Positions 41,969 through 45,647 of a stretch of 64,000 bases of DNA are shown here, piece after piece. Made by a program: the position numbers and the translations under genes. Numbering within the stretch: position 1 is the stretch's first letter; every line of letters begins with the position of its first letter. This DNA is from Pseudomonadota bacterium (GTDB lineage Bacteria > Pseudomonadota > Gammaproteobacteria > Steroidobacterales > Woeseiaceae). Where the stretch lies: NCBI GenBank assembly GCA_022563195.1, contig JADFNV010000004.1:1-64000 (forward strand), given 5' to 3'. The notes beneath the pieces are model-generated. The model did not search any database and had not been told where the DNA came from. It was given only the letters and a program-made list of their open reading frames with translations.

Positions 41969-42145
41969 GTGCTTGTAGCCGTTAGTTCCTCGCGATGGGC
42001 GCACCCATCGCCATCGTGAATTCGATTGTCCGGTCATAGATGAGCTGGCAACAGCTTGCAAAGAGTTGGATTGTCTTGCTGCATGACCCTGAAGCCGTCA
42101 GACTGTGGCGCCAAATTATACACGGAATTTCCGGGGCATACCCCC

Positions 42146-42736
42146 ATGTCGACATACCCTGAAGCTTGCTTTATTAAGAGTGCCGACGCTGGCAATCAGT
42201 TCCCTCCGGATACAGGCAGTGAGGTCGCAGTCGCCGGACGGTCGAATGCCGGCAAGTCGAGCGCGATCAACGTTATCGTCAACCGGCGCCAATTTGCGCG
42301 TACGAGCAAGACACCGGGCAGAACCCAACTCGTCAATTTCTTTCATTTACGCGATGAACGACGCCTTGTTGATTTGCCGGGCTATGGTTATGCGCGCGTG
42401 TCCGAGTCGAAGCGGCGGCATTGGGGTGAGCTGCTCTCCGGCTATTTCAGTACGCGGCAGAGCCTTAGAGGTTTGTTGATGATTGTCGACATTCGGCGGC
42501 AGTTGACGGAATACGATCGTCGCATGATGGCCTTCGCCGAAGAGGTCGAAGTACCCGTACACATACTGCTTACCAAGGCCGACAAGTTGAAGCGCGGACA
42601 GGCAGCGACGGCATTGCTGGCCGTAAAAAAAGAACTTGGCGATCGAGCAACTGTGCAGCAATTCTCGGCGCTCAAGAAGCACGGTGAGAGTGAAGCACGA
42701 AAGATGTTGGAATTATTTCTTTGCGCACAAAAATAA
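42146..42736 (+). CDS. engB: Ribosome biogenesis GTPase EngB (YihA/YsxC)
   Basis: 196-residue GTPase for 50S subunit assembly. G1 is GRSNAGKSS, G2 lies in RTSKTPGRTQLVNFF, G3 is DLPGYGYAR and G4 is TKADK, all in the EngB order. ATG 42146 fits the family N-terminus (CFIKSADAGNQFPPD), with CCGGGG upstream as a possible site. The last codons and stop overlap the T-run of the convergent small-RNA terminator. Confidence 0.94.
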   Translation: MSTYPEACFIKSADAGNQFPPDTGSEVAVAGRSNAGKSSAINVIVNRRQFARTSKTPGRTQLVNFFHLRDERRLVDLPGYGYARVSESKRRHWGELLSGYFSTRQSLRGLLMIVDIRRQLTEYDRRMMAFAEEVEVPVHILLTKADKLKRGQAATALLAVKKELGDRATVQQFSALKKHGESEARKMLELFLCAQK

Positions 42737-42766
42737 AAAAACCCCGGATCACAATGTGTACCGGGG
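42732..42766 (-). terminator. Intrinsic terminator of the small RNA, downstream of polA
   Basis: CCCCGG (42761-42766 on the minus strand) pairs with CCGGGG (42742-42747), with a CAC/GUG inner helix, then a U-run across 42741-42732 that overlaps the engB stop codon. No U-run follows on the plus strand, so it serves leftward transcripts only. Confidence 0.85.
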
Positions 42767-42897
42767 TAAGAAGAAGCAGCCGGCTTGGGGAAACCGGGCT
42801 GCACGCCTGCTTAGGGAGGTAAGCAGGCGTAGTGAGTTATGCACTCAAGGGATTGGAGTGTGGATGGGGTTGATAGTTCCCAGCAACATACAAATCA
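42732..42897 (-). ncRNA. Candidate small regulatory RNA in the polA-engB (Spot 42/ErsA) locus
   Basis: The 217 bases between the convergent polA and engB genes have no coding frame but, read leftward, three consecutive hairpins. First is a perfect 11-bp stem (42803-42813 with 42820-42830) whose six-base loop is CCUCCC, the complement of a Shine-Dalgarno sequence. Second is GCAGCC/GGCUGC (42776-42802) with a C-rich UUUCCCCAA loop. Third is CCCCGG/CCGGGG (42742-42766) followed by seven U, A and five U: an intrinsic terminator. A -10-like TATATT (42904-42909) would start it near 42897, but no good -35 is seen, so the 5' end is uncertain. As I recall, E. coli spf (Spot 42) and Pseudomonas ersA occupy this same position and orientation. 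Confidence 0.72.
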
Positions 42898-42953
42898 TTG
42901 AAAAATATAGCGTTTCTATTTCGATTCGCGCATTGTAGGAGCGGGCCGTAATA

Positions 42954-45647
42954 TCAATGCGCTTCGTCCCAGTTTTTGCCGACGCCGACGTCGACCTTGA
43001 GCGGTACCGATAAATCTGCGGCGCTGCACATGATGTCAACGACGTTGCGCTTAAGTTCGTCGACGTCGGAGATTGAAACCTCAAAGACGAGTTCGTCGTG
43101 TACCTGCATAATCATGCGTGCATCGATCGATCTGCTGTTGAGCCAATCGTGAATTTTGATCATCGCTCGCTTAATAATGTCCGCGGCCGTTCCCTGCATC
43201 GGTGCATTGATAGCGCTGCGTTCGGCGTATTGACGCCGCGGCACGTTCCGTGCATTGATTTCGGGAAGATAAAGTCGCCGGCCGAAAACGGTTTCCACAT
43301 ATCCCTGTTTGCGGGCTAATTCACGAATGTCATCCATGTAGGCCTTGACGGAAGGATAACGGTCGAAGTAGAGATCAACATATTCCTGGGCCTGGTGTCT
43401 CGAAATGCCAAGTTGTTTGGCCAGGCCGAACGCCGACATGCCATACATCAATCCAAAATTTATCGCCTTGGCCGAACGCCGTTGATCAGACGTGACGTCA
43501 TCGAGCTCCAAATCGAATACTTCGGCCGCGGTTGCCCGGTGTACATCGAGTTCATCTGCAAATGCCTTTAACAGGCCGTCGTCGGCGGACAGATGCGCCA
43601 TGATACGAAGCTCGATCTGTGAGTAATCAGCGGCGAGCAGAAGCTGGTTAGCGGGAGCGATAAACGCCTGACGAATACGACGTCCTTCGGGCGTTCGTAT
43701 CGGAATGTTCTGCAAATTCGGGTCCGTCGATGACAGTCGTCCGGTTGCCGCTACGGCCTGGTGATAGGACGTATGCACGCGCCCCGTTTCCGCGGCGATT
43801 TGCAGCGGCAATTTGTCGGTGTACGTACTCTTGAGTTTGCTGACACTTCGATAGTTGAGGATGACGCGCGGCAGATCGTAGTCATCGGCTAATTCTGCGA
43901 GCACATCCTCGGCGGTTGAAGGCTGACCCTTGGGTGTCTTGCGAATGATCGGCAACTCGAGTTTCTCGAAAAGAATCTGCTGCAGCTGCTTGGGCGAACC
44001 GAGATTAAACGGACCGCCGGCGAGATCGTGCGCCGTGGCCTCGAGATCGACCATCTTCTCTGTCAGCTCCCGACTTTGCTGCTTTAACATTTCTTCATCG
44101 ATCAAGACACCAGTCTCTTCCATTTGCAACAACACCGGTACGAGTGGTTGTTCGATGTTCACATAAACGTCGCGAAGCGATTCGATCTCATCAAGTTTCG
44201 CCCACAGGGTTGCGTGCAACTGCAGTGTTATGTCGGCGTCTTCAGCCGCATAGGGCGCCGCAGTGTCGAGATCGATCTGATTGAACGTCAGTTGCTTTGC
44301 GCCTTTGCCGGCGATGTCCTCAAAGTGAATGGTTTCGCGTCCGAGATAGAAACGTGCTGCCGAATCCATGTCGTGTCGGATCGCAACGCTGTTCAGGACA
44401 TAGGACTCAAGCATCGAATCGAAGCACATGCCCGATAACTTGATGCCATGGCGTGCGAGTACGTGAGCATCATATTTGAGGTGATGGCCGACCTTCTTGC
44501 GATTCGGATTTTCAAGAAAAGATCTAAGTTTTTCAAGCACTTCCTTTCGTGGTAGTTGATTCGGCGCGCCTGGATAATCGTGGGCAACGGGTATATAGGC
44601 GGCCTCGCCGGCTGTGACACACAGCGACAAGCCGACGACTTCTGCAGCCATGTAATTGAGGCTCGTCGTCTCGGTGTCGACGGCAACGAGGTCAGCCGCG
44701 TTGATTTTCTTTAGCCACTTATCGAACGTCTTCCAGTCGAGAACGGTTTCATAGTCGCCCTCGATCGCATCGCTGATGACTTCAGCGTCGTCAGCTTGGT
44801 CATCCAGTTGACCCAAAAGAGTCCGCAGTTCGAAGCGGCCGTATATTTCTCGCAAGCTTTTGACATCGGCGCTTGTCGGTCTCAGGTCGGTCATCGCCAT
44901 GGGTAATTCAACATTCAGACGAATCGTCGCGAGCTCTTGCGACAGTCGGAGTTGCTCAATGTTGTCGCGCAGGCTTTCGCCGACCTTGCCCTTGATTTCG
45001 TCAGCATGATCGACGATACCATCGGCACTGTCGTATTGATTAAGCCACTTGGCCGCCGTTTTGGCGCCAACGCGCGGAACTCCCGGAATATTGTCCGAGG
45101 TATCGCCGACGAGTGCGAGATAGTCGATGATTTGTTCGGGGTAAACGTCGAACTTTTCCTTAACGCCTTCACGAGCCATGATATTGCCGCTCATTGTATT
45201 GACCAGCGTCACGTTTTCGTTGACGAGCTGCGCCATATCCTTGTCGCCCGTTGAGACAAGCACCTTGAGACCATTGCTCGCAGCTTCCCGGCATAAGGTG
45301 CCGATGACGTCGTCAGCTTCGACGCCTTTGACGCGCAACAACGGCAGGCCCATGGCCTTGATAGCGTCGATCAGCGGTTCGACCTGCGCACGCAACTCGT
45401 CGGGCATGGGGGGTCGGTTGGCCTTGTATTCGGCGTACATGTCGTCGCGAAACGTCTTGCCCGGTGCGTCGAACACGACGGCAACATATTCGGCGGCCTG
45501 GTCGCGGACGAGCTTGTTGATCATGTTCAATACGCCGTGCAGTGCGCCTGTCGGCTCGCCCTTGGAACTGGTCAGCTTTGGCAGGGCGTGAAACGCCCGG
45601 TACAGGTAGGACGATCCATCGATCAGGATCAGGTCAGTGCCTGACAT
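42954..45647 (-). CDS. polA: DNA polymerase I
   Basis: 897 residues, full length for PolA. The 5'-3' exonuclease domain spans 1 to about 290 (LILIDGSSYLYRAFHAL, KGVEADDVIGTL). The 3'-5' exonuclease runs from about 310 to 490 with VAVDTETTSLNYM (the DxE residues), so proofreading looks intact. The polymerase domain holds motif A ADYSQIELRIMAH, the O-helix RRSAKAINFGLMYG and motif C IMQVHDELVFEV. It repairs gaps and removes Okazaki primers. ATG 45647 lies 48 bases after lptM. Confidence 0.97.
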   Translation of the reverse strand: MSGTDLILIDGSSYLYRAFHALPKLTSSKGEPTGALHGVLNMINKLVRDQAAEYVAVVFDAPGKTFRDDMYAEYKANRPPMPDELRAQVEPLIDAIKAMGLPLLRVKGVEADDVIGTLCREAASNGLKVLVSTGDKDMAQLVNENVTLVNTMSGNIMAREGVKEKFDVYPEQIIDYLALVGDTSDNIPGVPRVGAKTAAKWLNQYDSADGIVDHADEIKGKVGESLRDNIEQLRLSQELATIRLNVELPMAMTDLRPTSADVKSLREIYGRFELRTLLGQLDDQADDAEVISDAIEGDYETVLDWKTFDKWLKKINAADLVAVDTETTSLNYMAAEVVGLSLCVTAGEAAYIPVAHDYPGAPNQLPRKEVLEKLRSFLENPNRKKVGHHLKYDAHVLARHGIKLSGMCFDSMLESYVLNSVAIRHDMDSAARFYLGRETIHFEDIAGKGAKQLTFNQIDLDTAAPYAAEDADITLQLHATLWAKLDEIESLRDVYVNIEQPLVPVLLQMEETGVLIDEEMLKQQSRELTEKMVDLEATAHDLAGGPFNLGSPKQLQQILFEKLELPIIRKTPKGQPSTAEDVLAELADDYDLPRVILNYRSVSKLKSTYTDKLPLQIAAETGRVHTSYHQAVAATGRLSSTDPNLQNIPIRTPEGRRIRQAFIAPANQLLLAADYSQIELRIMAHLSADDGLLKAFADELDVHRATAAEVFDLELDDVTSDQRRSAKAINFGLMYGMSAFGLAKQLGISRHQAQEYVDLYFDRYPSVKAYMDDIRELARKQGYVETVFGRRLYLPEINARNVPRRQYAERSAINAPMQGTAADIIKRAMIKIHDWLNSRSIDARMIMQVHDELVFEVSISDVDELKRNVVDIMCSAADLSVPLKVDVGVGKNWDEAH

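Follow-up and report, generated by a model that had tools for sequence, protein, structure and literature searches.

What does the gap between polA and engB in this gammaproteobacterial genome encode, when would its product be made, and is it related to the small RNAs that lie in the same gap elsewhere? Within the window (the whole stretch of 64,000 nucleotides analysed here), the initial annotation had placed a probable small RNA at 42732..42897 and had noted that Spot 42 and ErsA occupy the polA-engB position, which we confirmed at the E. coli and ErsA loci. A small-RNA gene in this gap is borne out by the predicted fold, by covariation among relatives and by the NCBIfam matches of the flanking genes. 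On all sequence evidence, 42847-42733 on the minus strand is a small-RNA gene, and the features of the locus are as follows.

42954..45647, minus strand, as the RNA: polA (DNA polymerase I), upstream neighbour (NCBIfam NF004397, 1217 bits)
42875..42880, minus strand: -35 box GGAACT of sigma-E (RpoE) type, read directly
42853..42857, minus strand: -10 box TCCAA, read directly; relatives more often have TCTAA
42847-42733, minus strand: small-RNA gene of ~115 nt, its start deduced from the -10 box and the model edge
42833..42847, minus strand: 5' hairpin 1, UGAGU..ACUCA (GAGUG..CACUC in relatives), predicted fold
42803..42830, minus strand: hairpin 2, 11 bp, with the anti-Shine-Dalgarno loop CCUCCC at 42819-42814, predicted fold
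42776..42802, minus strand: hairpin 3, loop UUUCCCCAAG with CCCC exposed, predicted fold
42729..42766, minus strand: intrinsic terminator, CCCCGG..CCGGGG stem and U-run, predicted fold; the hairpin itself spans 42766-42742
42056..42736, plus strand: engB/ysxC/yihA GTPase, convergent neighbour (NCBIfam TIGR03598, 224 bits)

The region 42725-42900 on the minus strand has a folding energy of -63.3 kcal/mol, against a shuffle mean of -39.7 (sd 3.7, z -6.4), and none of 200 dinucleotide shuffles folded as well. In the predicted fold, the CCUCCC loop of hairpin 2 is unpaired with probability 1.0, and one CCUCCC and one CCCC are the only such loops of the window RNA. The perfect 11-bp stem presenting CCUCCC as an anti-Shine-Dalgarno loop, a C-rich second hairpin after it and the terminator were thus correctly described in the initial annotation. 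Its three hairpins are all present, but a weak fourth one at the 5' end (42847-42833; hairpin 1 above), separated from hairpin 2 by 2 nt, had gone unmentioned; similarly, its interval covers the hairpins and the terminator but overstates the RNA, which runs from about 42847 to 42733, the remainder up to 42897 holding the promoter. The engB stop codon overlaps the 3' end of the RNA. The absence of a coding frame also held, as a small protein inside the RNA was rejected when the frames opening at the GUG of the first hairpin, the ones followed across the relatives, proved unconserved and ranged from 2 to 40 codons among 28 aligned copies.

The conservation of the locus was investigated by a DNA search of 60 genomes, in which the region was recovered from 40, comprising its own, 35 of the 36 further genomes in the genus and 4 of the 23 from the order. 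Two copies occur at each of two loci with runs of N between or inside them, so that these pairs may be assembly products. The genus alignment consists of 28 copies including that of the window, 3 of the 31 having been left out for their N. In this alignment 96.7% of cells are paired and two-sided changes occur in 10 pairs, compared with 2.2 in shuffles, which argues that the hairpin structure is not a product of chance. The loop letters of hairpin 2 are invariant in 28/28 aligned copies while the stems vary, and the CCCCAA of the hairpin-3 loop is equally invariant (28/28). At the 30 genus loci, the window's included, engB adjoins the RNA in every case and polA was found in 26, the four others ending early at a contig end. 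In L004, L005, L012, L013, L022, L023 and L026, inspection by eye showed a polA-engB gap that retains the RNA with its box and is enlarged upstream of the promoter, either by long palindromic elements or, in L012, by short direct repeats and, in L004, by a small additional ORF. In the window itself, the first 27-43 query bases, at 42918-42960 just past polA, are a dispersed intergenic repeat that recurs at four further places in genome G032 and one more in G000.

A covariance model built from these genus copies (R1), which scores the window RNA at 124.8 bits, had matches in 66 of the 117 genomes searched in the order and in 57 of the 276 searched in the class, its own genome included. The model-fitted alignment of 65 matches leans toward the structure; 92.2% of its cells are paired, 27 of 28 pairs have two-sided changes, and two-sided cells number 286 against 64.5 in shuffles. 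Class-wide, two-sided changes were found in 4/4 pairs of hairpin 1 and 5/6 pairs of the terminator, and CCUCCC is present somewhere in the RNA in 53 of the 65 wider matches. These observations were further strengthened by an independent MAFFT/RNAalifold analysis of 25 members, in which hairpins 1 and 2 and the terminator were recovered with two-sided changes in 16 of 21 pairs; hairpin 3 was not recovered by RNAalifold on this plain MAFFT alignment. The compensatory stem changes and the covariance matches in related genomes by which the initial annotation had proposed to check its reading are therefore both present, the former in the genus, class-wide and MAFFT/RNAalifold alignments and the latter across order and class.

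The neighbourhood is largely retained at this distance. The class search added 28 loci. In 24 of them polA or engB is no more than about 1.5 kb away, and in 4 the RNA is on the strand of engB rather than that of polA; at the 18 class loci with an identified polA, the RNA is downstream on the polA strand in 14 and runs in the opposite direction in 4. One locus (L264, G298:C33) carries four tandem RNA copies between polA and engB at 1499-2252.

The search was widened to the phylum with a second model, R2, built from A2, which holds one sX13 locus (L262) and several anti-hemB loci and no ErsA. R2 scores the window RNA at 104.9 bits, the next-best match in the window reaching 17.2. It matched 55 of 397 genomes, of which 42 belong to the class and 13 to other classes. 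Matches in these 13 score 29-37 bits, chance matches in whole-genome scans come to about 30-37 bits, and R2 E-values are read as rough. A spread outside the class was rejected: seven of the 13 were read, neither polA nor engB adjoins any of the seven, the family layout is not recognisable by eye in any of them, one resembles the end of a tRNA, and the matches outside the class are counted as chance. Of the 29 class loci read from this search, 19 have polA or engB nearby, and the 10 without include 8 of family f106. Matches to actinobacteria and others, among those listed by a pattern scan of named genomes, were likewise taken as chance.

The region upstream of the RNA was examined for the conditions under which it might be transcribed. 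The box GGAACT-N17-TCCAA at 42880-42853 precedes the RNA, its -10 element differing from TCTAA by one letter. The sigma-E promoter consensus is GGAACTT-N16-TCTRA-like, and GGAACT-N17-TCYAA upstream of the RNA is presumably of this type. The strict pattern GGAACT-N17-TCYAA occurs in 28 of 31 copies within the genus, the remaining three being one cut by a contig end and two with GGAACT and a variant -10 box. A looser pattern was found in 58 of 68 upstream regions outside the genus, which include sister species and are not independent; 200 shuffles gave 2.7 on average and 7 at most. The spacing is 17 in 48 of the 58. The genome of the window encodes RpoE (293 bits, cut-off 236), such a match being present in 25 of 30 genomes examined, and its rpoE is itself preceded by a box, GAACT-N17-TCTA, 73 nt before the model-matched part and with the same spacing of 17; other rpoE loci have such a box at 68-87 nt in 10 of 12 cases (shuffle mean 0.55). 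Thus, with a conserved box resembling those of rpoE and an RpoE that carries a like box before its own gene, the RNA probably belongs to the sigma-E regulon, and the promoter type suggests when the RNA would be made. The putative sigma-E-type promoter and the class-wide family, as read from sequence, are additions beyond the initial annotation.

At three loci of genus g64 (L072, L077 and L078) the RNA stands beside engB without a GAACT box and behind a common upstream stretch, perhaps another promoter, and g64 genomes have 2-4 R1 matches each. An Alcanivorax small RNA is reported to adjoin an engB-type gene (PMC9788540); the g64 loci were not identified with it, as their neighbour resembles msrB by eye.

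Taken together, we consider it likely that the locus encodes an RpoE-promoted envelope-stress small RNA with its own terminator, which silences mRNAs through C-rich loops acting on GGGAGG-type ribosome-binding sites. Under envelope stress, the RNA's own sigma-E (RpoE) type promoter would fire to give a free-standing transcript ending at its own terminator; the stem-held loops CCUCCC and CCCC would stay single-stranded, both could pair with ribosome-binding sites rich in G, chiefly GGGAGG, and the ribosome would then be unable to load, so that the paired mRNAs would be silenced. Transcription, RpoE dependence, mRNA pairing, the targets and any help from Hfq are what we infer within this scheme. 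Calculated pairing energies are -14.0 kcal/mol for the loop with GGGAGG, where the 16S tail gives -11.3, and -9.1 kcal/mol for the loop with plain GGAGG, where the tail gives -11.6. As the loop is calculated to pair more strongly than the 16S tail with GGGAGG and more weakly with GGAGG, a selective blocking of strong G-rich ribosome-binding sites is suggested. By analogy, such selectivity resembles the mode reported for sX13, while the envelope-stress timing suggests a resemblance to ErsA. Within the window, GGGAGG before a start was found for only 2 ORFs of at least 90 aa. In a search of 61 genus genomes, a perfect 10-nt loop complement before a start (TAGGGAGGTA..ATG) occurred 4 times, in 4 genomes; the reversed control also occurred 4 times, in 3 genomes, and this search thus yielded no conserved target. 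The label "Hfq-type" given in the initial annotation is unsupported as stated: 27 of 30 genomes carry hfq, that of the window among them, yet sX13 is reported to act independently of Hfq (PMC3771888) and the activation of anr by ErsA to require it (PMC8575079).

Other explanations were weighed against this reading. The RNA might chiefly constitute the 3' end of the polA message, with a terminator whose extra hairpins protect or end the transcript and a small RNA arising as a processing by-product; the position downstream on the polA strand in 14 of 18 class loci, with a terminator at the end, would fit. A terminator, however, needs neither loops invariant in 28/28 copies nor a promoter box at fixed spacing, and the tandem copies, the opposite direction in 4 of 18 class loci and the loci with no polA nearby all speak against this account, which we regard as very unlikely. 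The box itself could be unused and the RNA a housekeeping product of an ordinary promoter. Consistent with this, sX13 is described as constitutively expressed (PMC3771888), and the box is absent by pattern in 10 of the 68 homologues outside the genus, including the best anti-hemB match (L233). Against it stand the 58 of 68 regions that do have the box, 48 of them at spacing 17 (sister species among them not being independent), and a sigma-70 scan of 42300-43500 that returned a single site, on the plus strand, which is as many as chance would give; housekeeping expression is therefore held to be unlikely.

A further alternative concerns the action of the RNA rather than its origin, namely that the C-rich transcript titrates a protein or another RNA, by binding Hfq or as a sponge for G-rich RNAs, instead of blocking ribosome-binding sites. 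The failure to find a conserved target with a long complement in the 61 genus genomes and the presence of hfq in 27 of 30 genomes are compatible with titration, as is the reported lowering of hfq mRNA and of Hfq::GFP by sX13 in Xanthomonas (PMC3771888). On the other side, the invariant loop complements a strong Shine-Dalgarno sequence, and action on mRNAs via such loops is shown for sX13 (PMC3771888) and predicted for NfeR1 (PMC10746234). Titration is accordingly given a low probability, and a sigma-E-driven RNA acting on ribosome-binding sites is retained as the preferred reading. Its promoter type, present in many genomes of the class, would predict when the RNA is made.

The relationship to named families was then examined by comparison with Rfam. 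The initial annotation had ventured a new family. No Rfam family reaches its gathering score on the window RNA, in keeping with that view, but novelty is qualified by the kinship described here: on the model scores, we place the window RNA, anti-hemB and sX13 in one superfamily, with ErsA more weakly linked. The closest family is anti-hemB (Burkholderia RNA 7, RF02837), listed as a 105-nt transcript of B. cenocepacia (PMC5688073). Its model scores 38.6 bits on the window RNA (E 1.1e-7), short of the gathering score of 49.5, in a full-length match that takes in the CCUCCC hairpin, the middle hairpin and the terminator in order (model positions 1-81). The cut-off was passed in 0 of 20 genomes of the relatives search. 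Of 232 genomes across the class, 60 have an anti-hemB match at E 1e-6, and in 11 the match exceeds the cut-off. In 4 of these 11 (G330, G197, G292, G279) the match lies at places that R1 found genome-wide, and in 6 more R1 finds the place in a single-locus search at 15.7-35.3 bits, this check having covered 10 of the 11 genomes with G319 left out. R2 scores the best anti-hemB match, L233, at 39.7 bits. Unlike the window RNA, L233 and 7 other loci of family f106 have neither a sigma-E box nor polA or engB as neighbours, and the f106 RNA has apparently moved and been re-promoted. A nearly constant hairpin 2 (GCUUUUCCUCCCUGAGCGGG) was observed in the f106 loci L302, L304, L307, L309, L313, L314 and L315.

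The sX13 RNA of Xanthomonadaceae (RF02232, gathering score 50) shares with the window RNA an upstream polA and stem-loops with C-rich loops. Its model found no match in the window at 42600-42990 up to E 10. Across the class it matched 7 of 232 genomes, 2 of them passing the cut-off; of the 5 matches below it, 4 lie at places found by R1. In the reverse direction, R1 scores one sX13 locus (L262) at 21.7 bits (E 1.2e-5) and the second (L263) at only 9.7 bits, and R2 scores L263 at 31.7 bits. Differences are also evident: the sX13 loops are reported as CCCC/CCCC/CCCCC (PMC3771888), as opposed to the CCUCCC and CCCC of the window RNA, in Xanthomonas the hypothetical gene XCV4199 follows the RNA (PMC3771888), and the sX13 loci have at most a weak GAACC box upstream. 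The same paper states that repression requires the C-rich motifs of sX13 and the G-rich motifs of the target mRNAs, likens the place of sX13 to those of Spot 42 and alpha-r7, and notes that sX13 and alpha-r7 have C-rich loops in common and no sequence similarity (PMC3771888). Each of the four tandem copies at L264 has a sub-threshold anti-hemB match; in addition, one copy has matches to sX13 and ar14 and another a match to ErsA.

ErsA of Pseudomonas (RF01719, Pseudomon-1) resembles the window RNA in its polA-engB gap, its orientation and a sigma-E-type box (TGAACTTT..GTCAGA); the window RNA thus has both the gap and the promoter type of ErsA, which depends on sigma-22, the RpoE homologue (PMC7565897). 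Of 6 Pseudomonadaceae regions scanned with the Rfam ErsA model, 5 exceed the cut-off and one, L230, falls just below it. RF01719 (gathering 50) gave no match on the window or on L001, and R1 did not find ErsA (9.7 bits, E 0.13). R2, with no ErsA in its seed, scored 17.3-25.2 bits on 7 Pseudomonadaceae gaps, these being the regions with both polA and engB out of 9, the two without polA or without both having been left out. Chance matches of R2 score up to 16.5 bits when 225 kb of other loci are scanned and up to 17.2 within the window itself, under faster filters than the Pseudomonadaceae scan, which weakens these 17-25 bits, so that the link to ErsA rests also on place and promoter. ErsA differs in that its first two hairpins are separated by an unpaired, U-rich segment of 34 nt (PMC8575079), which the window RNA lacks. 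At one Pseudomonadaceae locus (L220, G291:C5:109000-117500), no polA was found in 8.5 kb and no such RNA in the gap behind engB. In place of polA, a long ORF that by eye resembles glycine dehydrogenase follows engB there, and the place of ErsA is thereby broken up.

Spot 42 (spf) of E. coli lies in the same polA-yihA/engB gap on the strand of polA. Homology with it is not supported by the models, as no Rfam match to it was obtained on the window and R2 gives it 13.2 bits, below the chance levels of 16.5 and 17.2. In E. coli K-12 (L286, 3369-3373), a TGAACT stands at the -35 place, 31 nt ahead of the annotated start of Spot 42, and no sigma-E-like -10 box was found 15-18 nt from this GAACT. The alpha-r14 / NfeR1 "cuckoo" RNAs (RF02344) are reported to have anti-Shine-Dalgarno hairpins (CCUCCUCCC) and to be Hfq-independent, and NfeR1, which has an RpoD promoter, carries the loop CCUCCUCCC three times over (PMC10746234), whereas the window RNA has no three such hairpins. 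The ar14 model gave no match on the window and sub-threshold matches on the family members L080 and L264.

In the accessible literature, sX13, anti-hemB, ErsA, Spot 42 and alpha-r14 are treated apart; we found no paper uniting them, though an earlier unification in print is possible, and none naming both sX13 and anti-hemB. If they form one family, the results obtained with sX13 and ErsA would be transferable to many uncultured lineages, the sigma-E response would gain a conserved small-RNA arm outside Enterobacteria and Pseudomonas, and a joint covariance model would annotate loci now missed by Rfam. It is this wider unification of separately named small RNAs that gives the locus its interest. 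In a proposal whose chances we hold to be evenly balanced, ErsA, sX13, anti-hemB and the window RNA would descend from one sigma-E-driven ancestor with C-rich loops in the polA-engB gap of early Gammaproteobacteria, and RF01719, RF02232, RF02837 and perhaps RF02344 would be branches of a single stress-controlled anti-Shine-Dalgarno mimic that damps translation, individual lineages having later changed promoter, loops, direction and place.
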